Source of the DNA: Candidatus Nanopelagicaceae bacterium
GTDB lineage: Bacteria; Actinomycetota; Actinomycetes; Nanopelagicales; Nanopelagicaceae
Length of the DNA stretch: 33,321 nucleotides
Assembly: GCA_018882745.1 (NCBI GenBank)
Contig: VFFD01000007.1
Coordinates: 1 to 33,321 of the forward strand
Direction of reading: 5' to 3'
Shown in pieces: positions 5,169 through 29,148 of this stretch (position 1 is its first letter; every line of letters starts with the position of its first letter). The notes beneath the pieces were generated by a model. It searched no databases. It saw nothing but the letters and a program-made list of their open reading frames with translations, and had not been told where the DNA came from. The position numbers and the translations under genes were made by a program.

Positions 5169-5935
5169 CGACTTCTCTCCTCGATAAAGATCCTCGCATT
5201 TTCGAAGATCGTTTCTGCGTCATAATCCAACGTTGCAACGTGGTAGCTATTGGTGAGCTCAATTCGTTGTTTATCCGATGACCCTAATTCGCTCATGATT
5301 ATTTCAGTGTTGGAGACAGGCAGGACATGATCGTCAACGCTATGAAAAACCAACGTTGGTACCTTTATTGTCGGCAACAACGAGCGAGAAAGTTTCAGAA
5401 ACTTGTACAGTTGCGCAACGCCTTTTAATGGCAAAGCATCGTAGCCCCATTCCGTAACGCCCGGCTTCTTGATGTCATCTCCTACAGAGGCCCGTGACTT
5501 CTGAATCCTGGAAATTATGTGCACGAATTTAATTTGAATTCCAGGAATGTGAATCATGGGGTTAACGAGAATTAACCCATCGACGAGATGTTGATTCTTC
5601 GCTGTGACATACAGAGAATTCCCACCGCCCATCGATAGAGCGCAGATGAAGACCTTGGAGCACCGTTCTCGTAATTTTTTTAGTTCACTTTCAACTTTTG
5701 CTGGCCAGTCTTGCCACTGCACATGATTCAGGTCGTGCCACGTTGTTCCGTGTCCCGGCATTAGCGGGACGGAGACGGTGTATCCGCGTTCATTGAGGTA
5801 GTGAGACCACGGCCTCATTGAGGCTGGAGTTCCCGTGAAGCCATGTACAAGAAGCACGCCGATTTTCTCGTTGGGTCCGGTACCGGCGGCAAAGTAATCC
5901 TTAATCCAGCCTTCCGGGGCGCCCTCAATACTCAC
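5165..5935 (-). CDS. Alpha/beta hydrolase, Est30-like carboxylesterase/monoacylglycerol lipase
   Basis: This is a 256-aa serine hydrolase without signal peptide or membrane segment, so it is cytoplasmic. The oxyanion-hole HGFTG motif is at residues 31-35, the nucleophile elbow ALSMGG places Ser101, the acid lies in the VDDHVLP segment (Asp201/202), and the His is in NSYHVATLD (His232). Order and spacing match Geobacillus Est30-type carboxylesterases that hydrolyse short- to medium-chain esters or monoacylglycerols. The natural substrate is unknown. It is the first gene of the minus operon and starts at a GTG with no Shine-Dalgarno but a TAGGGT hexamer 6 nt upstream, suggesting a leaderless message. 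An overlapping ATG one base upstream is followed directly by TGA and can be excluded. Confidence 0.88.
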   Translation of the reverse strand: MSIEGAPEGWIKDYFAAGTGPNEKIGVLLVHGFTGTPASMRPWSHYLNERGYTVSVPLMPGHGTTWHDLNHVQWQDWPAKVESELKKLRERCSKVFICALSMGGGNSLYVTAKNQHLVDGLILVNPMIHIPGIQIKFVHIISRIQKSRASVGDDIKKPGVTEWGYDALPLKGVAQLYKFLKLSRSLLPTIKVPTLVFHSVDDHVLPVSNTEIIMSELGSSDKQRIELTNSYHVATLDYDAETIFENARIFIEERSR

Positions 5936-5941
5936 ATACGA

Positions 5942-5947
5942 ACCCTA
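5942..5947 (-). promoter_or_regulatory. Candidate -10 (TAGGGT) of the esterase operon
   Basis: TAGGGT on the minus strand ends 6 nt before the GTG start at 5935, implying a leaderless transcript. The whole divergent intergenic region is 28 bp. A weaker candidate for the plus gene, CACAAT at 5950-5955, ends 8 nt before the ATG at 5964. Confidence 0.45.
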
Positions 5948-5963
5948 AGCACAATCACCGTAA

Positions 5964-7799
5964 ATGTCATTCATCCCATCTACCTTTACCTACGTGAGTG
6001 ATCAGAAATCTTTGAAACGTGGTGCAGCCCTTGGATGGCAGCCCACTTTCGACGATATTGGGCGCGCTCTCATCGATACCACATTTGTAGTTGTTGATCT
6101 AGAGACAACCGGTGGCTCGCATTCCAATTCTTCTATCACCGAAATTGGTGCGGTGAAAATTCGTGGCGGAGAAATCATCGGAGAATTCCAAACTCTTGTA
6201 AACCCAGAATCGCCCATTCCGGCCTTCATCACTGTGCTGACTGGCATCACTGATGCCATGGTCATTGAAGCTCCCAAGATCGGTGAAGCGTTGTTTTCGT
6301 TCTTAGAGTTTGCTGGTTCTCCGGAAGAAACAGTTTTGATTGCACATAATGCGCCTTTTGATATCGGATTTCTAAAAGCTGCGGCACTGGAGTGCGCAAC
6401 GCCGTGGCCCAAGTTCCAGGTCATCGACACAGCGCGCGTGGCGCGTTGTGTCGTTACTCGTGATGAGGCGCCAAATTGCAAGCTTGCAACACTTGCAAAT
6501 TTCTTTGGCGCGGCTACAAATCCAGATCACCGTGCGCTCTCTGATGCGCGCGCCACAGTTGATGTTTTTCATGGGATTCTGGATCGATTGGGTTCCTTTG
6601 GCGTCACAACATTGGAGGATCTCAAATCATTCTCAAATCGCATTACTGACTCACAACGAAAGAAGCGTTACCTAGCAGAAGGTCTCCCGAACAGTCCTGG
6701 CGTCTACATCTTTAGGGATGAACAACGTGAGCCGCTTTATATCGGCACTACTCGCAACCTTAAGAATCGCGTTCGTTCCTATTTCACTGCCGCAGAAACA
6801 CGTAAACGTATACATGACATGATCACTCTGGCCCACTATCTCGATTACATCGAGACTCCAACCATTATTGAAGCAGAAGTCCGCGAACTACGTCTTATTG
6901 CAGAAAAGCAACCGCGCTTTAATCGTCGCTCGAAATTCCAAGAAAAAGCAGTATGGGTCAAAATTACAGAAGAGAATTTCCCAAGATTGGTTTCGGTCCG
7001 AGGCCAGCGCGGACTCTCCGATGATCTCGGATGGTGCGGACCATTCAATGGCCGTGATGAAGCAGCTCGCGCGATTGAAGCAATCTATGAAGTTACTCAA
7101 ATTCGCCAATGCTCCCCTCGCATCACACTAAATTCCATGAAAAGTGCAAGTCCCTGCGCCCTCTTTGATATGAAAAAGTGCGGCGCTCCCTGCGTGGGTA
7201 AGGAATCAGTTGACTCTTATTCATCTCATGTCTTAACCACTCAGATTTCGATGCATCATGACGCCACCACAATCCTTAACTCCATCAATCAAAGAATGAA
7301 GGAGTTGGCTCATCAAGAACGTTTTGAAGAGGCCGCTGAATTACGTAACCGACTTAGCTCATTTATTCGCGGTACTGCACGCGGGCAGCGCATTAGATCT
7401 CTCACCCGAGTTCCACACCTGATTGCAGCTCTTCCAGTTTCGCCACGGCAATGGGAGTTCATTGTTATTCGTTATGGTCGGCTAGCCGGAAGCGCCCAAG
7501 GTAGCTCTGCCAATTATCGCGATGTCATTGAAAGTCTGATTCTCACAGCAGATGTCGTTGTCGATAATGGCGAGATACTTCCCGCATCTCATCATGAAGA
7601 GGTTGAAGTTCTGCTTCGCTACCTTTCGCACGACGGAATCAGACTTATCGATATTCAAGGTGAATGGTGCATGCCCACTTTCGGCTCTGGTGCAGCGCGA
7701 GAGAATTTGGAACGAGTTAGGGAAGTTTCAGATTCCCTCCGCTATAAAGAGGACTTTGCTAACTCGTTTGAAAGATCTGCCCAACGCTCCACAAGGTGA
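5964..7799 (+). CDS. DEDDh exonuclease-UvrC-like (GIY-YIG) fusion nuclease
   Basis: This 611-aa protein has two nuclease modules. Residues about 40-205 are a DnaQ-like 3'-5' exonuclease: DLE at 45-47, PFD with Asp133, and HRALSDA giving His189 and Asp194 (DEDDh set). Residues about 244-325 are a GIY-YIG domain like the N-terminus of UvrC (GVY 246-248, YIG 259-261, Arg269, a Glu-rich EAEVRELR helix). A UVR-type helix pair follows near 435-465. The C-terminal RNase H-like and HhH parts of true UvrC are missing. Such fusions are known in actinobacteria (for example mycobacterial Rv2191). A DNA-repair role, perhaps an alternative 3' incision as in Cho, is inferred. The 3' end overlaps trpD on the other strand by 58 bp. 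Confidence 0.9.
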   Translation: MSFIPSTFTYVSDQKSLKRGAALGWQPTFDDIGRALIDTTFVVVDLETTGGSHSNSSITEIGAVKIRGGEIIGEFQTLVNPESPIPAFITVLTGITDAMVIEAPKIGEALFSFLEFAGSPEETVLIAHNAPFDIGFLKAAALECATPWPKFQVIDTARVARCVVTRDEAPNCKLATLANFFGAATNPDHRALSDARATVDVFHGILDRLGSFGVTTLEDLKSFSNRITDSQRKKRYLAEGLPNSPGVYIFRDEQREPLYIGTTRNLKNRVRSYFTAAETRKRIHDMITLAHYLDYIETPTIIEAEVRELRLIAEKQPRFNRRSKFQEKAVWVKITEENFPRLVSVRGQRGLSDDLGWCGPFNGRDEAARAIEAIYEVTQIRQCSPRITLNSMKSASPCALFDMKKCGAPCVGKESVDSYSSHVLTTQISMHHDATTILNSINQRMKELAHQERFEEAAELRNRLSSFIRGTARGQRIRSLTRVPHLIAALPVSPRQWEFIVIRYGRLAGSAQGSSANYRDVIESLILTADVVVDNGEILPASHHEEVEVLLRYLSHDGIRLIDIQGEWCMPTFGSGAARENLERVREVSDSLRYKEDFANSFERSAQRSTR

Positions 7800-15954: not shown

Positions 15955-16700
15955 CCGTTAGCACCAGCCTTGAGTGATTGTATATATGCGTCGTACTCTG
16001 ATGGAGTCACAACTTTGACGGTAAATCTCATCTGCGAATGTTGGCGGCCACAGAGAATGTTGCAGAAACCGCGATATTCACCGAGCTCATTAGCAGCAAA
16101 CTCAAGCTTGTTGGTTACACCTGGAATATTTTGCATTTGAATCATGAACTCAGGCACCCAGAAAGAGTGAATCACATCAGATGCTGTAAAGGTGAAGCGA
16201 ACTTTCTCCCCCAAAGGCATATAAAGGATAGGAGGTTGCGCTGGCGTTCCCGTAACAGTGGTTCCTGGACCTGCTTCTTCGTACGTGAACTGCCACGACC
16301 ATTGAATGCCATTGACTGTCACATCATGAACTTCAGTACTTGCTGGCGAAACCCTGACGATCTCACTCTCTGCCTTTGCGGTGTATCCAAATAAAACTGC
16401 GACGATGATGAATGGGATGACGGTGTAGGCAATTTCCGCAGGAACGTTGTACTGAAATTGGCGAGGAAAACTTTCACCTTCTTTTCTACGGTGAAAAATA
16501 GCGGGCCAGAGAATAAGGATGAGAGTTATGACGCCAACAACCGCTGCAGCAAGCCATGCGCCTTGCCATAGTCCAAAGGAGGATTCATTGACACTCGTAA
16601 CGTTTCCTTCAAAGCCAATGCCTGTGAGTTCCTGATTGGAGCATCCCGTCAAGAAGCCCGAGGTGGCCAGAAAAGCCAGAACCGAAACGCGGCGCAGCAT
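15951..16700 (-). CDS. ctaC: Cytochrome c oxidase subunit II (lipoprotein)
   Basis: This subunit accepts electrons at CuA. The N-terminus is a lipoprotein signal with lipobox LTGC, so Cys20 should be lipidated. Two membrane helices (about 47-70 and 90-108) are followed by a cupredoxin domain. The CuA ligands are His178 in DVIHSFW, then Cys213, Cys217, His221 and Met224 in [12 protein letters not shown]; the residue usually Glu in CSELCG is Ile here, but that ligand acts through its backbone carbonyl. WSWQF is the usual aromatic electron-entry patch. First gene of ctaCDF; TATCCT ends 6 nt before the ATG and no Shine-Dalgarno is seen. Confidence 0.96.
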
Positions 16701-16706
16701 GCGCTA

Positions 16707-16712
16707 AGGATA
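16707..16712 (-). promoter_or_regulatory. Candidate -10 (TATCCT) of ctaCDF
   Basis: TATCCT on the minus strand ends 6 nt before the ctaC ATG at 16700, suggesting leaderless transcription. A good -35 at normal distance is not obvious. Confidence 0.5.
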
Positions 16713-16743
16713 GTCCGACCTCGCATCAACGCCCATTAGCGGG

Positions 16744-16749
16744 TACCGT
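16744..16749 (+). promoter_or_regulatory. Candidate -10 (TACCGT) of the desulfurase-like gene
   Basis: TACCGT ends 7 nt before the GTG at 16757. An AAGG directly touching the GTG is too close to act as a Shine-Dalgarno. Confidence 0.35.
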
Positions 16750-16756
16750 TCCAAGG

Positions 16757-17845
16757 GTGTCCCCTATCACAGAGAACACTCCCTCAATTCGCGACTTTCA
16801 AAATGACCTGCCGCTGCATCCTGCGGCGCGCGATTTATTGGCGTATTTCTTTGATTCTGGCTGGGTTGACCCAAGCAAACTGCATCACCAATCTGCTCAG
16901 TTACGAAATCTGATTGGAACAGCGCGTGAAACTATCGCTGACAATCTTGGAATCAAGAATTCCGAACTCGAAGTGGTGGGCGAATTGGGATTTGGTTTTC
17001 AAACAGCGCTTGGTGGTCTTCTCAAAGATCCCTCAGAAAAGTTTTTCTATTCGGAGATTGACCGCCAGGTAGTTCATGCTTTCGCTCGTTCTCATATCAA
17101 TTCGGGTGGCTTAGCTACGTCGCTCAAACCTAGCTCGACAGGGCTCGTTGATTTTCAAAGCGCGCTCGCGCAGGAAAAGTCATCGGTAGTTTCCTGGCAA
17201 GCAACCAATCGTGAAATGGGCGCTATCCAAGAATTACCTAAACTCGAAGATAACCACTCGCTCTTTGCCGATATGACCGCGTCATTTCCGCTGAATCGTC
17301 TCCCAGAAAAATGGGATAGCGCACTATGGGACCCTCGAAGTTTTGCTGGACCTCAAGGAATTGCTCTAATTGGTATTTCACATCAGAGTAAATGGCGAAA
17401 TCCTGGACCAGAATTGGATAACCGCCGAGTTTTTGGATCTTTCTCTAAACCGTTGCTCCTAGCTACGGCGGTCGCGCTAGAAAATTGGGTGAAAAGCGCT
17501 GCTGAAGATTTTGCTCACTTGAGGAAACTCAACACTTTCACTCGAGAACTATTGCGCTCCAAAATTAAGGGTGTTCGCGTAGTCGGAGATGACCAGAAAA
17601 ACGATCCGCGATTCATTGCGCTCGTTCTAGCTGATTCAGTTGCTGAAGAAGTTCTTCGCAAAGTTGAGCATGCAGGATTCCTCATTGACGCAGGCTCGGC
17701 CTGCGGCGCCGGCGCTTTATCTCCTAGCCATGTACTTACGTCCATGGGCTTCTCAGAGAATGGAAACGTGAGGTTAACCCTCAAGCCAGATCAGAACGAA
17801 ACGGTAATAACAGAGTTAGTTGAAAGAATCGCCGCAAGCGCATGA
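16757..17845 (+). CDS. Degenerate class V aminotransferase / cysteine-desulfurase-like protein
   Basis: This 362-aa protein has the overall layout of IscS/NifS enzymes (fold-type I PLP). The N-terminal region with a PLHPAARDLL segment, the NREMGAIQ block (family N-E-T-G), FADMTAS with Asp172 (the PLP pyridine Asp), and the C-terminal GSACGAGALSPSHVL loop with Cys316 and VRLTLKP are recognisable. However, the lysine segment, normally HK followed by GPKG, reads RSFAGPQG (194-201): Ser195 takes the place of the PLP lysine. The His that stacks on PLP is also not apparent near SEIDRQ (99-104). It is therefore unlikely to be a normal desulfurase. It ends 30 bp inside the convergent erpA. A partner or regulatory role in Fe-S assembly is conjecture. 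Confidence 0.75.
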   Translation: MSPITENTPSIRDFQNDLPLHPAARDLLAYFFDSGWVDPSKLHHQSAQLRNLIGTARETIADNLGIKNSELEVVGELGFGFQTALGGLLKDPSEKFFYSEIDRQVVHAFARSHINSGGLATSLKPSSTGLVDFQSALAQEKSSVVSWQATNREMGAIQELPKLEDNHSLFADMTASFPLNRLPEKWDSALWDPRSFAGPQGIALIGISHQSKWRNPGPELDNRRVFGSFSKPLLLATAVALENWVKSAAEDFAHLRKLNTFTRELLRSKIKGVRVVGDDQKNDPRFIALVLADSVAEEVLRKVEHAGFLIDAGSACGAGALSPSHVLTSMGFSENGNVRLTLKPDQNETVITELVERIAASA

Positions 17846-24349: not shown

Positions 24350-25142
24350 AAGAAGCTCTTTCGTGCTACTCCTACTCGGTTCACTTCTAGGCGCTATTTC
24401 TTTCTCATGGCCGCTCTTTATTCCAGAAATCAACTTCTTTATCTTTCAGCCTGACTCAGCACGCGCATTTGCAATTTTGATTGCGCTAATCGGCATAGGC
24501 GTCGTGTCACTCGATATTTCACAGGGCGCTCTAGATAGCAAAGCGGTCGCACTCCTTGGAGTTCTCGCAGCGCTCATCGCAGCACTTCGACTTGTTGGCG
24601 CAGGTGCGGTTGGTATTGAGCCGATGTGGTTTCTTCTGATTATTTCGGGATACGTTTTTGGAGCCAACTTTGGATTCGCACTTGGAGTTGTATCGATGGG
24701 GATATCAGCCCTTATGACTGGTGGCATTGGCCCTTGGTTGCCATTTCAAATGTTGGCGGCGGGTTGGATTGGACTCTTTGCGGGAGCAGTCGCGCGACTC
24801 ACACGAAGAGTAAAAATGAAAGTTGAAATTCTCTCTTTGGTTATGGTCGGACTCTTTTCATCTCTTGCTTTTGGGTTTCTCATGGATCTCCAGCTCTGGC
24901 CGTGGATAACGAGCACCGATACCCAGCTATCGTTTATCGCAGGTGGGGCAATTCTGGAGAACTTCCAACGATTTATGGTCTTTCATCTGGCGACCGCGTT
25001 GGCGTGGGATATCCCGCGAGCAATCACCACTTCCGTTCTCATTGCTCTCACCGCTAAACCACTTCTTAATTCACTACGTCGGGCTCAGAGCCGTCTCAAT
25101 TTCACTTTACGTGCGATGCAACCAACGGTAAGCGCGCGATAA
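24336..25142 (+). CDS. ECF transporter S component, probably for cobalamin
   Basis: This is a 268-aa membrane protein with about seven to eight hydrophobic segments and an Arg-rich N-terminal start (MRRNRRS). Its FGANFGFALG...MTGGIGPWLPFQMLAAGW stretch is typical of S components with GxG-rich loops. It is the only substrate-specific subunit in the operon, so the riboswitch points to cobalamin or a corrinoid precursor as substrate, comparable to the predicted CbrT group. This is inferred from regulation, not from binding residues. The ATG lies within the end of the ATPase gene. The 3' end overlaps convergent gcvT by 41 bp, leaving no room for a separate terminator. Confidence 0.82.
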   Translation: MRRNRRSSFVLLLLGSLLGAISFSWPLFIPEINFFIFQPDSARAFAILIALIGIGVVSLDISQGALDSKAVALLGVLAALIAALRLVGAGAVGIEPMWFLLIISGYVFGANFGFALGVVSMGISALMTGGIGPWLPFQMLAAGWIGLFAGAVARLTRRVKMKVEILSLVMVGLFSSLAFGFLMDLQLWPWITSTDTQLSFIAGGAILENFQRFMVFHLATALAWDIPRAITTSVLIALTAKPLLNSLRRAQSRLNFTLRAMQPTVSAR

Positions 25143-26202
25143 CGCCTGAGCTCTGACGACCACGGACATCAATCACTATCTTTGAATCAAGTGGAAGTTT
25201 TTGATTGAGTAATGCGAGTGCGATTCCAGTTTTGAGCGAAGGCGAGAACGTCCCACTCGTTACTCTCCCAATCACCTCACCTGATTCATTCAGAACATCC
25301 ATACCTGCTCGCGGGATTCCACGGTCGCTGATCTTGATGGCTTGAAGAACTCGATGGCTTTTTTCGGAACGCTGCTTCATGAGAGCCGCTTTACCCCAGA
25401 ATTCCTTATCCCATGTAACTGCCCATGAAGCGCTCGCTTCTACTGGTGAAATATCCAGCGACAATTCGTGACCATGGAGTGGGTAGCCCATCTCGGTTCG
25501 CAAGGTGTCACGCGCTCCAAGTCCTGCAGCTCTGCCACCACATCCATGAACTTTCTCAAGGATTACATTCCAAATTTCCATGGCATCACTCCAAGAAGCC
25601 AGAATTTCATAGCCCCGTTCGCCGGTGTAACCAGTTCTACAGAGCACTATCTTCTTTGAGCTAATAGTGGTCTCAGTAAAAGACATGTAATCAAGATTTG
25701 CTTGAATTCCCAGATCATTAAGTACTTGGTCTGATTGCGGACCCTGTAGTGCGAAGACTGAATAGCTCTCATGAAGATTTTCAATAGTAACTCCAGAAGG
25801 TGCTTTTGCCTTTAGTCGAGAGACAACCTCAGATGTATTTGAAGCGTTCGGTATCAGAAAGACTTTTTCGTTTGAGTAGCGATATGCGATGAGATCGTCA
25901 ATCACGCCACCACGTGCAGGGTCGCATATGAGTGTGTATTGAGCTTGGCCATCCTTGATGCGGTTCAAATCATTGGTGAAGGCAGAATTCAAATACTCCA
26001 AGGCGCCAGCACCCGAGACCATAGCTTTACCAAGGTGCGAGACATCAAAGAGTCCAACCGTTTCGCGAACTGCGCGATGCTCATTGAGAACGCCACCACC
26101 GGAGAGTGCGGGATATTCAATAGGCATCTCCCAACCGCCGAAGTCTGCAAGTTTGGCCCCAGCGTCAAGGTGGAATTGGTGTAATGGCGAATATTTGCTC
26201 AC
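25102..26202 (-). CDS. gcvT: Aminomethyltransferase (glycine cleavage T protein)
   Basis: Transfers the methylene group from the aminomethyl-lipoyl H protein to tetrahydrofolate in the glycine cleavage system; 366 aa. Signatures: FGGWEMP near the N-terminus, LFDVSHLGK, NDL...DGQAQYTL with the folate-site Asp, GGVIDDLIAYR, CRTGYTGERGYE and GARDTLRTEMGYPLHGHEL. gcvH and gcvP are not adjacent. The start is a GTG with no Shine-Dalgarno; TAGGTT ends exactly 6 nt upstream. The start codon is only 17 bp from that of divergent pepA. The 3' end overlaps the S-component gene. Confidence 0.96.
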   Translation of the reverse strand: MSKYSPLHQFHLDAGAKLADFGGWEMPIEYPALSGGGVLNEHRAVRETVGLFDVSHLGKAMVSGAGALEYLNSAFTNDLNRIKDGQAQYTLICDPARGGVIDDLIAYRYSNEKVFLIPNASNTSEVVSRLKAKAPSGVTIENLHESYSVFALQGPQSDQVLNDLGIQANLDYMSFTETTISSKKIVLCRTGYTGERGYEILASWSDAMEIWNVILEKVHGCGGRAAGLGARDTLRTEMGYPLHGHELSLDISPVEASASWAVTWDKEFWGKAALMKQRSEKSHRVLQAIKISDRGIPRAGMDVLNESGEVIGRVTSGTFSPSLKTGIALALLNQKLPLDSKIVIDVRGRQSSGVIARLPLVASHVK

Positions 26203-26207
26203 TCCAA

Positions 26208-26214
26208 TAACCTA
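26208..26214. promoter_or_regulatory. Overlapping back-to-back -10 elements of gcvT and pepA
   Basis: The 7-bp sequence TAACCTA reads TAACCT (26208-26213) towards pepA and TAGGTT (26214-26209) towards gcvT. Each hexamer ends exactly 6 nt before its start codon (ATG 26220; GTG 26202). The intergenic space is 17 bp in total. Both mRNAs are predicted to be leaderless. Confidence 0.55.
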
Positions 26215-26219
26215 GCCCA

Positions 26220-27731
26220 ATGCCCTCAATTCGTGCGACTGATAGCTCTGTTATTGATGATGTCCTTGTCATCGGATTTTCGAAATCGTCAGGAGGTTCC
26301 AAGAAATCTCCTCAATTCAATCTTCACAGTGGTGATCTCAAGGTAGATGTCTCATCACTTCTTGAAGCACTTGACGATTTAGGTGCTTCTGGCGCTGCTG
26401 ATGAAGTAATTAAATTGCCAGGCCGCGCCTCGAAATTGATCGTTCTTACTGGACTCGGTCAGGCGCCATCCAACAATCGATTTGCGCACGAAACGCTACG
26501 TCGAGCTGCCGGCGCAGCTGCGAGAAACTTAGCGGGACACTCATCTGCAACCTTTGCAATTCCACACGCCAATCTTGAAGAGTTTGCCGCAATCTCCGAG
26601 GGAGCGCTTCTAGGCGCATATGCCTTCGATGAGTTCCGCGGAACTTCAAAATCCGATCGAAAGTCTCCACTCGGAAAGATTTCGATTTATAGCAAGAGCG
26701 CAAAGAAGAGCGAATACACCAAATCTCTTCGTCGAAGCGAAATCATCGCAAAGTACACATTCATCGTCCGTGACCTCATTAACACTCCTCCAAGCCACCT
26801 CACGCCTGATTCATTTACACAACGTTTCAAGAAACTTGCCTCTGGTTCTGGAGTGAAAGTTGAGATTCTCAACGACACGCAGCTGCGCAAACTTGGTTAC
26901 GGTGGAATTATCGGAGTTGGACAAGGCTCAGCTAATCCACCTCGTCTACTTCATCTCTCCTACACACCAAAGAAGAAGAATGTAAAACGATATGCACTTG
27001 TCGGGAAAGGCATCACTTTTGATACCGGTGGATTGGCGCTAAAGCCAGCACAAGGCATGGAAGCGATGAAATCAGATATGAGCGGTGCTGCTGCAGTTTC
27101 TGCTGCAGCCCTTGCGATTGCAGAATTGGGATTGCCCATCGCAATTGATGCTTGGGCTCCACTTGCCGAAAACATGGTGAGCGATACTGCAACGCGTCCA
27201 AGTGACATCATCACTATCTATGGTGGAAAGACTGTAGAAGTTCTCAATCCCGATGCCGAAGGTCGCCTTGTTCTTGCTGATGCGATGATGAAAGCCGCAG
27301 AGGTTGGCAAGAAAGCTGGCGGACTTGATGGACTCGTTGATGTTGCAACTCTCACTGGTGCTCAAGTTGTTGCGTTAGGAACTCGCACGAGCGCAGTCAT
27401 GACAAATAATCAAGAATTTTCAGATACATTCCTAGAAATTGCGCAATCAACTGGCGAACAATTCTGGCCGATGCCGCTACCCGAAGAGCTTCGCGCTTCT
27501 CTTGACTCACCTGTTGCAGATATCGCAAATATTGGAGATCGCATGGGTGGCATGTTGGTTGCTGGACTCTTCCTCAAGGAATTTGTGACTCCAGAACTTC
27601 CATGGCTCCATCTCGATATTGCAGGTCCCGCATATAACGATGCAAAGCCTCACGGATATACCCCAGTGGGCGGAACAGGTGTCGCACTTCGCACTCTCGT
27701 CGCGCTGGCGGAGTCCATGGCATCTCGCTGA
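26220..27731 (+). CDS. pepA: Leucyl aminopeptidase (M17)
   Basis: A two-metal cytosolic aminopeptidase releasing N-terminal residues, 503 aa. Metal and catalytic blocks are complete: VGKGITFDTGG (Lys and Asp ligands), MKSDMSGAAAV (Asp ligand) and NPDAEGRLVLADA (Asp and Glu ligands plus catalytic Arg; Pro replaces the more common Thr). The first about 180 residues form the less conserved N-terminal domain. It heads the run pepA-lpd-sucB-epimerase, an order also found in other Actinobacteria. No Shine-Dalgarno precedes the ATG; TAACCT ends 6 nt upstream. A 49-bp gap separates it from lpd. Confidence 0.95.
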   Translation: MPSIRATDSSVIDDVLVIGFSKSSGGSKKSPQFNLHSGDLKVDVSSLLEALDDLGASGAADEVIKLPGRASKLIVLTGLGQAPSNNRFAHETLRRAAGAAARNLAGHSSATFAIPHANLEEFAAISEGALLGAYAFDEFRGTSKSDRKSPLGKISIYSKSAKKSEYTKSLRRSEIIAKYTFIVRDLINTPPSHLTPDSFTQRFKKLASGSGVKVEILNDTQLRKLGYGGIIGVGQGSANPPRLLHLSYTPKKKNVKRYALVGKGITFDTGGLALKPAQGMEAMKSDMSGAAAVSAAALAIAELGLPIAIDAWAPLAENMVSDTATRPSDIITIYGGKTVEVLNPDAEGRLVLADAMMKAAEVGKKAGGLDGLVDVATLTGAQVVALGTRTSAVMTNNQEFSDTFLEIAQSTGEQFWPMPLPEELRASLDSPVADIANIGDRMGGMLVAGLFLKEFVTPELPWLHLDIAGPAYNDAKPHGYTPVGGTGVALRTLVALAESMASR

Positions 27732-27780: not shown

Positions 27781-29148
27781 GTGGCGAACTTTGATCTAGT
27801 AGTACTCGGCGGCGGAAGCGGCGGTTATGCGTGTGCGCTTCGGGCGGCTCAACTTGGTCTCAGCGTTGTATTGATTGAGAAAGACAAGTTAGGTGGCACC
27901 TGCTTACACCGCGGCTGCATTCCCACAAAGGCCCTCCTCCACGCAGGTGAAATAGCAGATGGCGCTCGTCATGCCTCCGAATTTGGAGTGAAAGCTGAAT
28001 TTCATTCTATGGATATGGTCGCAGTTAATGCCTATAAAGATGGTGTTATCACCAAGCTTCACAAAGGACTGCAAGGCTTAGTGAAGTCCCGCAACATCAC
28101 TTATGTCGAAGGTTCTGGAAAGTTAGTCTCGCGCGACACCGTGGAAGTCAATGGTGAGAAATACACCGGAAAGAATGTGGTTCTTGCAACTGGCTCATAT
28201 GCAAAATCTCTGCCTGGTCTCGAGGTTGATGGAAAAACCATCGTCACAAGTGATCACGCCATGCACATGACTCATGTACCTAAATCTGTCATTGTTCTCG
28301 GCGGTGGCGTTATCGGATGCGAATTTGCATCGGTTTGGAAATCTTTTGGCGCGGAAGTCACGATCATTGAAGCGCTTCCTCATCTTGTGGCGTTAGAAGA
28401 TGAATCCTCAAGCAAGCAGTTAGAGCGCGCATTCCGTAAGCGCGGTATCAACTTTGAACTTGGCACAAAGTTTAAGAGTGCCACAAAGAGCGGTAAAGGT
28501 GTCACCATAACTTTGGAAGATGGAAAGAATTTCGAAGCTGAACTACTTCTCGTTGCTGTAGGTCGCGGACCCGTTTCAAATGGCCTTGGCTATGAAGAGC
28601 AAGGCATCAAGATGGAGCGCGGATACATTCTGGTTGACAATAAGTGCCGTACCAATATCCCAGGCATTTGGGCGGTCGGAGATTTGATTCCAACGCTACA
28701 GCTTGCTCATGTCGGATTTGGCGAAGGCATACTTGTCGCTGAAGAAATTGCAGGTTTAAATCCTCGCCCAATTAATTATGACGGCGTTCCACGTGTCACT
28801 TATTCTGAACCTGAAGTTGCATCGGTGGGACTCACGACTGCTGCGGCGAAAGCACAAGGTTATGACGTTGTTGAGTTGAATTATGATTTGGCTGGAAATG
28901 GAAAAGCGCAGATTCTCAAAACTGCTGGATCTGTAAAACTGGTCTCTCAAAAAGGTGGGCCCGTTCTGGGAATTCATATGGTGGGCTCTCGAGTTGGCGA
29001 GCTACTTGCCGAAGCTCAACTCATCTTCAACTGGCAAGCAGATGCCGCTGATGTTGCACCTCTTATTCACGCTCACCCAACACTCTCAGAAGCCATGGGA
29101 GAAGCGCATCTCGCGTTGGCTGGAAAACCACTTCATGCGCATGGATAA
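27781..29148 (+). CDS. lpdA: Dihydrolipoyl dehydrogenase (E3)
   Basis: FAD flavoprotein that reoxidises dihydrolipoyl groups of 2-oxoacid dehydrogenase and glycine cleavage complexes with NAD+; 455 aa. FAD-binding GGGSGG is at 10-15, the redox disulfide GGTCLHRGC gives Cys41 and Cys46, the NAD site is VLGGGVIGCEFA, and WAVGDL is the second FAD motif. The C-terminal HAHPTLSE gives the catalytic His432-Glu437 pair. A GAGG 6 nt before the GTG at 27781 decides the start; a TTG two codons upstream lacks this spacing. Partners are the adjacent sucB product and possibly GcvT's system. Confidence 0.96.
   Translation: MANFDLVVLGGGSGGYACALRAAQLGLSVVLIEKDKLGGTCLHRGCIPTKALLHAGEIADGARHASEFGVKAEFHSMDMVAVNAYKDGVITKLHKGLQGLVKSRNITYVEGSGKLVSRDTVEVNGEKYTGKNVVLATGSYAKSLPGLEVDGKTIVTSDHAMHMTHVPKSVIVLGGGVIGCEFASVWKSFGAEVTIIEALPHLVALEDESSSKQLERAFRKRGINFELGTKFKSATKSGKGVTITLEDGKNFEAELLLVAVGRGPVSNGLGYEEQGIKMERGYILVDNKCRTNIPGIWAVGDLIPTLQLAHVGFGEGILVAEEIAGLNPRPINYDGVPRVTYSEPEVASVGLTTAAAKAQGYDVVELNYDLAGNGKAQILKTAGSVKLVSQKGGPVLGIHMVGSRVGELLAEAQLIFNWQADAADVAPLIHAHPTLSEAMGEAHLALAGKPLHAHG

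Follow-up and report, generated by a model that had tools for sequence, protein, structure and literature searches.

A 17-bp spacer between gcvT and pepA in a Nanopelagicaceae genome as a probable bidirectional promoter of two leaderless mRNAs

How can two divergent genes be transcribed when their start codons are separated by only 17 bp? This question is raised by the gcvT/pepA boundary in a stretch of 33,321 nt (hereafter, the window), which is part of a 1.22-Mb draft genome from the family Nanopelagicaceae (freshwater acI Actinobacteria). A phage origin of the stretch was rejected, as no match was found in the phage collection.

Gene Organization of the Locus

The genes flanking the boundary were assigned as follows:

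25102..26202, minus strand: gcvT, aminomethyltransferase (glycine cleavage T-protein), GTG start at 26202; NCBIfam NF001567/TIGR00528, 405/303 bits
26220..27731, plus strand: pepA, leucyl aminopeptidase, ATG start at 26220; NCBIfam NF002073, 592 bits
27781..29148, plus strand: lpd, lipoamide dehydrogenase, downstream of pepA and co-directional with it; TIGR01350, 488 bits

Beyond pepA, lpd is followed in the same direction by sucB and then by a TIGR01777 gene. The start of lpd is likely the GTG at 27781, judging from the GAGG upstream of it. The gene at 27781..29148 was the only lipoamide dehydrogenase match of the genome above the family cut-off and the sole full-length one. The genes gcvP and gcvH are located on a different contig from gcvT and pepA. 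A search of the gcvT/pepA region against Rfam did not find an RNA element. In addition, a second PepA-like gene, 40% identical, was noted elsewhere in the genome (G000:C11:55779-57101; L002); the match contains one in-frame TGA, and the PepA paralogue matches in most relatives from the genus do not contain a stop.

Two -10 Elements in the Spacer

The plus strand of the spacer at 26203-26219 reads TCCAATAACCTAGCCCA. The following elements were distinguished in it:

26203..26219, no strand assigned: 17-bp gcvT/pepA intergenic spacer, putative shared bidirectional promoter; 14 of its 17 columns do not vary among the 23 genus genomes
26208..26213, plus strand: pepA -10 hexamer TAACCT, a TANNNT exactly 12 nt upstream of the ATG, followed by 6 nt (AGCCCA)
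26209..26214, minus strand: gcvT -10 hexamer TAGGTT, reading from 26214 to 26209, followed by 6 nt (ATTGGA); TANNNT kept in the family
26220, plus strand: pepA transcription start as predicted from the -10 position; A, the first base of the ATG
26202, minus strand: gcvT transcription start as predicted from the -10 position; G of the GTG, 18 bp from the pepA start

An earlier sequence-only reading had described TAACCTA as TAACCT in one direction and TAGGTT in the other, with five bases in common and with each hexamer ending 6 nt before its start codon, and every coordinate of this description proved accurate. The common bases are 26209-26213, within the TAACCTA core, and the -7T/-11A pairing is reciprocal: the A at 26209 and the T at 26213 are -11 and -7 on the plus strand and -7 and -11 on the minus strand. 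The gcvT direction has a -18T, which is the complement of the pepA A+1 (26220). The pepA direction does not have it, because gcvT starts with GTG and 26202 is consequently C on the plus strand. Both promoters contain A at -6, where the leaderless promoters of the family prefer T, and this is the cost of sharing one -10 element. When promoter scores were ranked among 115 leaderless promoters of the genus, pepA took the 28th place and gcvT the 87th, i.e., below most of them. On both sides only 6 nt, and no 5' leader, lie between the -10 element and the start codon. A Shine-Dalgarno-like sequence was not found in the spacer for pepA, and for gcvT there is a weak AGG within TAGGTT, 8 nt before the GTG.

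Leaderless genes of actinobacteria have a known signature, a TANNNT placed about 12 bp before the start codon (PMC3160421; PMC3898074). Such genes are defined by this TANNNT, by the lack of a Shine-Dalgarno sequence and 5' leader, and by a transcription start within 5 bp of the start codon; TANNNT was found exactly at -12 in both gcvT and pepA. Genome statistics were obtained from samples of 0.32-0.40 Mb per genome using simple ORF calling. In 0.32 Mb of the genome studied, the share of ATG/GTG codons with TANNNT at -12 was 7.9% for early starts and 0.04% for internal positions, and no comparable peak was present at other offsets. The pattern TANNNT-N6/7-start was found at approximately 24% of genes in this genome and at 17-30% in the samples of four relatives. 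In the window, TANNNT-N6-RTG was rarer than in shuffled sequence (8 vs. 20); of the eight occurrences, two belong to the gcvT and pepA starts and another three fall on ORF starts. The leaderless genes known from actinobacteria (PMC3160421; PMC3898074) likewise have TANNNT at -12/-13, have no -35 consensus and make up about a quarter of genes. Unlike ordinary genes of this kind, gcvT and pepA have one -10 element in common.

It had also been claimed that any -35 contacts would lie inside the opposite coding sequence, and this is indeed the case. No -35 consensus was found in the 115 leaderless promoters of the genus (TTGACA matches: 2.93 observed vs. 2.99 shuffled). At gcvT/pepA, the best local match to TTGACA was 3/6 on both sides, and a -35 element in the opposite genes was rejected on these grounds. 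One region deserves mention:

26185..26190, plus strand: possible weak pepA -35 contact region TGGCGA, with a 17-bp spacer; inside gcvT codons 5-6, 3/6 of TTGACA

The third-base conservation of gcvT codons 5 and 6 was the 4th and the 13th among 113 fourfold columns, which is suggestive at most of a weak synonymous constraint where the pepA -35 would sit.

Conservation in the Genus and the Family

The conservation analysis covered the family Nanopelagicaceae. It was revealed that all 23 genus genomes retaining the region carry CACTCCAATAACCTAG[C/T][C/G][C/T]AATG at the gcvT/pepA boundary. An alignment of relatives had been proposed earlier as a check on the TAACCTA core, and the core was kept in all of these genomes. 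With 14 of its 17 columns invariant, the spacer showed a mean pairwise identity of 0.961 in this set, in which the fourfold-site identity was 0.381 for gcvT and 0.403 for pepA, i.e., nearly randomised. Invariant fourfold third bases numbered only 1 of 49 for gcvT and 5 of 120 for pepA. The alignment indicates that the spacer is under purifying selection at nearly every base. The GTG start of gcvT was found at the same position in 23/23 genomes. Conservation ends at the two start codons, and this speaks for their being the true starts. The genus is one clade, so that the conservation of the spacer reflects one origin; in the GcvT tree the genus adjoins the sister genus g11 with modest support (88/77), and the divergence inside the genus is deep. 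The variable columns 26217 (C/G) and 26216 (C/T) preserve the S-R extended -10 of gcvT, a feature present at 49% of TANNNT promoters of M. tuberculosis (PMC3898074). The invariance also exceeds the minimal TANNNTA, as TCCAA and ACC are invariant in the genus too, and this is not fully explained by plain -10 logic.

In the family, TANNNT-N6-8-start upstream of gcvT was found in 140 of 142 distinct loci and in 16 of 17 genera, with TAGGTT, TAAGTT or TAGATT as the hexamer in 130 loci; pepA is leaderless-like in 58 of the 142. The distance between the two starts is 18 bp in the genus and mostly 36-40 bp, with separate -10 elements, elsewhere in the family. Starts 23 bp apart whose -10 elements have TA in common were found at the loci L103 and L115, and an equivalent arrangement of 19 bp is present in one genome of g11 (L205). 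In g11, GTG is replaced by ATG at the same gcvT position. Where the pepA start of the sister genera g9 and g11 has moved at least 57 bp downstream, TCCAATAACCTA is still found next to gcvT, but some or all of the pepA half (AGCCCA, ATG) has disappeared. Read from the alignment, this shift appears to be a natural experiment in favor of a bidirectional promoter. At one locus of the genus g14 (L203), the gcvT TAGGTT is kept farther from the ATG, so this gcvT may have gained a short leader.

The Spacer as a Bidirectional Promoter

The -10 element is nearly symmetric, and this is what gives rise to bidirectional promoters in bacteria; the commonest distance between their starts is 18 bp, at which -7 and -11 of the two directions fall on the same base pairs, and a distance of 23 bp is preferred as well (PMC10268837, PMC12825309). 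According to Warman et al., a bidirectional promoter is defined by two mapped transcription starts located 7-25 bp apart on opposite strands, and a -18T is common but not required. At gcvT/pepA, a symmetric -10 with the -7T/-11A pairing of the 18-bp class was found. All these characteristics make it highly probable, as judged from the sequence, that the spacer belongs to the bidirectional promoters described by Warman, Grainger and colleagues, with both transcripts leaderless. The earlier proposal of two leaderless promoters on one -10 element is thus strongly supported by the conservation, the genome-wide leaderless signal and the exact 18-bp geometry.

The palindrome-like heptamer TANNNTA (TAACCTA) would offer a -10 element for the housekeeping sigma factor on each strand. 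RNA polymerase could engage it in either orientation, melting the same five base pairs, and would begin transcription with the initial base of the start codon, the A of the pepA ATG or the G of the gcvT GTG. The whole intergenic region would accordingly be the core promoter. The transcription from pepA probably reads into lpd and sucB. One polymerase orientation at a time is expected, yet gcvT and pepA would be co-expressed rather than switched. The -10 elements, the 18-bp register, the leaderless start codons and the purifying selection are the steps supported by the sequence; the transcription starts themselves, transcription in both directions and its simple constitutive low-level use are presumed.

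Both ingredients of this arrangement are already known, including adjacent divergent leaderless genes, as described for M. tuberculosis (PMC3898074). A partial literature search yielded no paper on doubly leaderless bidirectional promoters. The promoters of the Warman type (PMC12825309, PMC10268837) are similar to gcvT/pepA in the pseudo-symmetric -10, the 18-bp distance of starts, the -7T/-11A pairing and the one-sided -18T. However, the divergent RNA of known examples is often antisense and non-coding, whereas both predicted transcripts of gcvT/pepA are leaderless mRNAs; the promoter also occupies the entire 17-bp intergenic region, and its starts are predictions. The adjacent divergent genes prpD (Rv1130) and Rv1129c of M. 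tuberculosis are both mapped as leaderless (PMC3898074); in contrast to gcvT/pepA, starvation induces both of these genes, and one of them is a regulator. Overlapping divergent promoters are also found in lysG/lysE of M. tuberculosis (PMC5648196) and in EcoRV-type restriction-modification systems (PMC5333194). These are regulator-driven, and the lysG/lysE intergenic region is 108 bp long, whereas gcvT/pepA has no evident regulator or operator.

In the five family genomes sampled, 42 of 218 divergent gene pairs were leaderless-like on both sides. The -10 elements overlapped in 11 of the 42, with distances of 17, 18, 18, 19, 23, 23, 23, 24, 24, 24 and 24 bp; the two 18-bp cases represent the same locus in two species. 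The architecture is therefore a recurring one in the family, and gcvT/pepA is one compact and strongly conserved case. For the same reason, these abundant freshwater Actinobacteria appear to unite leaderless translation with bidirectional promoters in one compact architecture. A divergent gene boundary can thus shrink to 17 bp, with both start codons doubling as predicted transcription starts. Because -7 and -11 are the same base pairs in both promoters, single mutations should affect both genes, and mutations of the shared bases would allow the bidirectional-promoter model to be tested cleanly beyond E. coli.

Alternative Explanations

The conserved 17 bp could mainly be an operator for a transcription factor co-regulating gcvT and pepA, with the resemblance to -10 elements being secondary. 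Such a site would account for conservation that covers more than the -10 consensus positions and for the CCAAT that is present twice, 13 bp apart. However, six genus loci have a broken second CCAAT (GCAAT), the right half of the spacer decays where the pepA start moves away, and -10 elements in exact register with the two start codons are not what an operator on its own would lead one to expect. The block TCCAATAACCTAG was found, with up to one mismatch, only at gcvT/pepA in the genome studied, and its exact copies occur once each in six other genus genomes. As the conserved block is single-copy in each genome, no shared operator is visible. The idea of a regulon was rejected given this uniqueness in the genome and the six relatives, and since the block was not seen at gcvP or gcvH. 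A single-copy site would escape this search for a repeated operator-like block; taken together, the operator explanation is very improbable. Equally little weight can be given to transcription that starts inside the opposite genes and produces leadered mRNAs with Shine-Dalgarno sites, the hexamers being coincidental. The weak AGG upstream of gcvT could serve as such a site, but it is not conserved: in 54 of 140 family members it is replaced (TAAGTT/TAGATT), while T-A and the final T remain. For pepA the spacer offers nothing similar, and the coding sequence adjoining the conserved spacer is under weak synonymous constraint at most.

The sequence-only reading had further proposed that the shared -10 has an either/or choice between one-carbon metabolism and peptide degradation built into it, a switch at which one direction, once activated, would silence the other. 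The part concerning mutual exclusion stands: it is physically unavoidable for polymerase at this geometry and has been stated for bidirectional promoters of E. coli, where strong activation of one side represses the other (PMC12825309); the overlap of the -10 elements is also kept throughout the genus. The switch itself was not supported. In five of five tested E. coli bidirectional promoters, the basal level was too weak for competition, and the partner was repressed only on strong activation of one direction (PMC12825309). Neither an activator site nor a second copy of the conserved block was found for gcvT/pepA, and relatives in the family keep both genes with well-separated promoters, 36-40 bp apart. 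Glycine cleavage needs the T-protein (gcvT) and the L-protein (lipoamide dehydrogenase). The only full-length lpd, i.e., the sole source of the L-protein, is located on the pepA side, which makes the two sides partners and not metabolic opposites; a process that needs the products of both directions argues against either/or logic. Thus, no evidence for the action of a switch was found, and this explanation is quite unlikely, though less so than the two considered above. Somewhat less doubtful, while still improbable, is the assumption that competition between the two orientations fixes the ratio of gcvT to pepA-lpd-sucB and lowers noise, and that selection keeps the shared -10 for that and not for compactness alone. 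If so, the T and L proteins of glycine cleavage would be coupled passively, without a regulator, and gcvT/pepA would represent a type of two-way promoter with two leaderless transcripts that is characteristic of the streamlined acI genomes.

Other Candidate Two-Way Sites

Where the 18-bp pattern occurs elsewhere in the genus, a second long ORF is mostly missing. Two candidate 18-bp doubly leaderless pairs were noted in one genome (G020), with the ORFs named by eye: a methyltransferase-like ORF of 425 aa opposite an ORF of 180 aa (L157:3057-3079) and a YCII-like ORF opposite a DinB-like ORF (L164:478-500). The CACTTGGTTAGGCTAAG...CATG site of six genus genomes was rejected as a gene pair, as the opposite ORF has only 7-57 codons. 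Sites similar to CACTTGGTTAGGCTAAGSRCATG were found in six genus genomes (L149:2998, L150:2704, L151:2960, L152:3034, L153:3068 and L154:3026), where they precede a long ORF, of 677-681 codons in four genomes, and contain a palindrome-like TTAGGCTAA. Given the short opposite ORF, they may be leaderless promoters firing into antisense or into a small ORF. In the window, two more divergent boundaries (16700-16757 and 5935-5994) contain leaderless-like -10 elements on both sides, which are 57 and 59 bp apart, respectively, and do not overlap.
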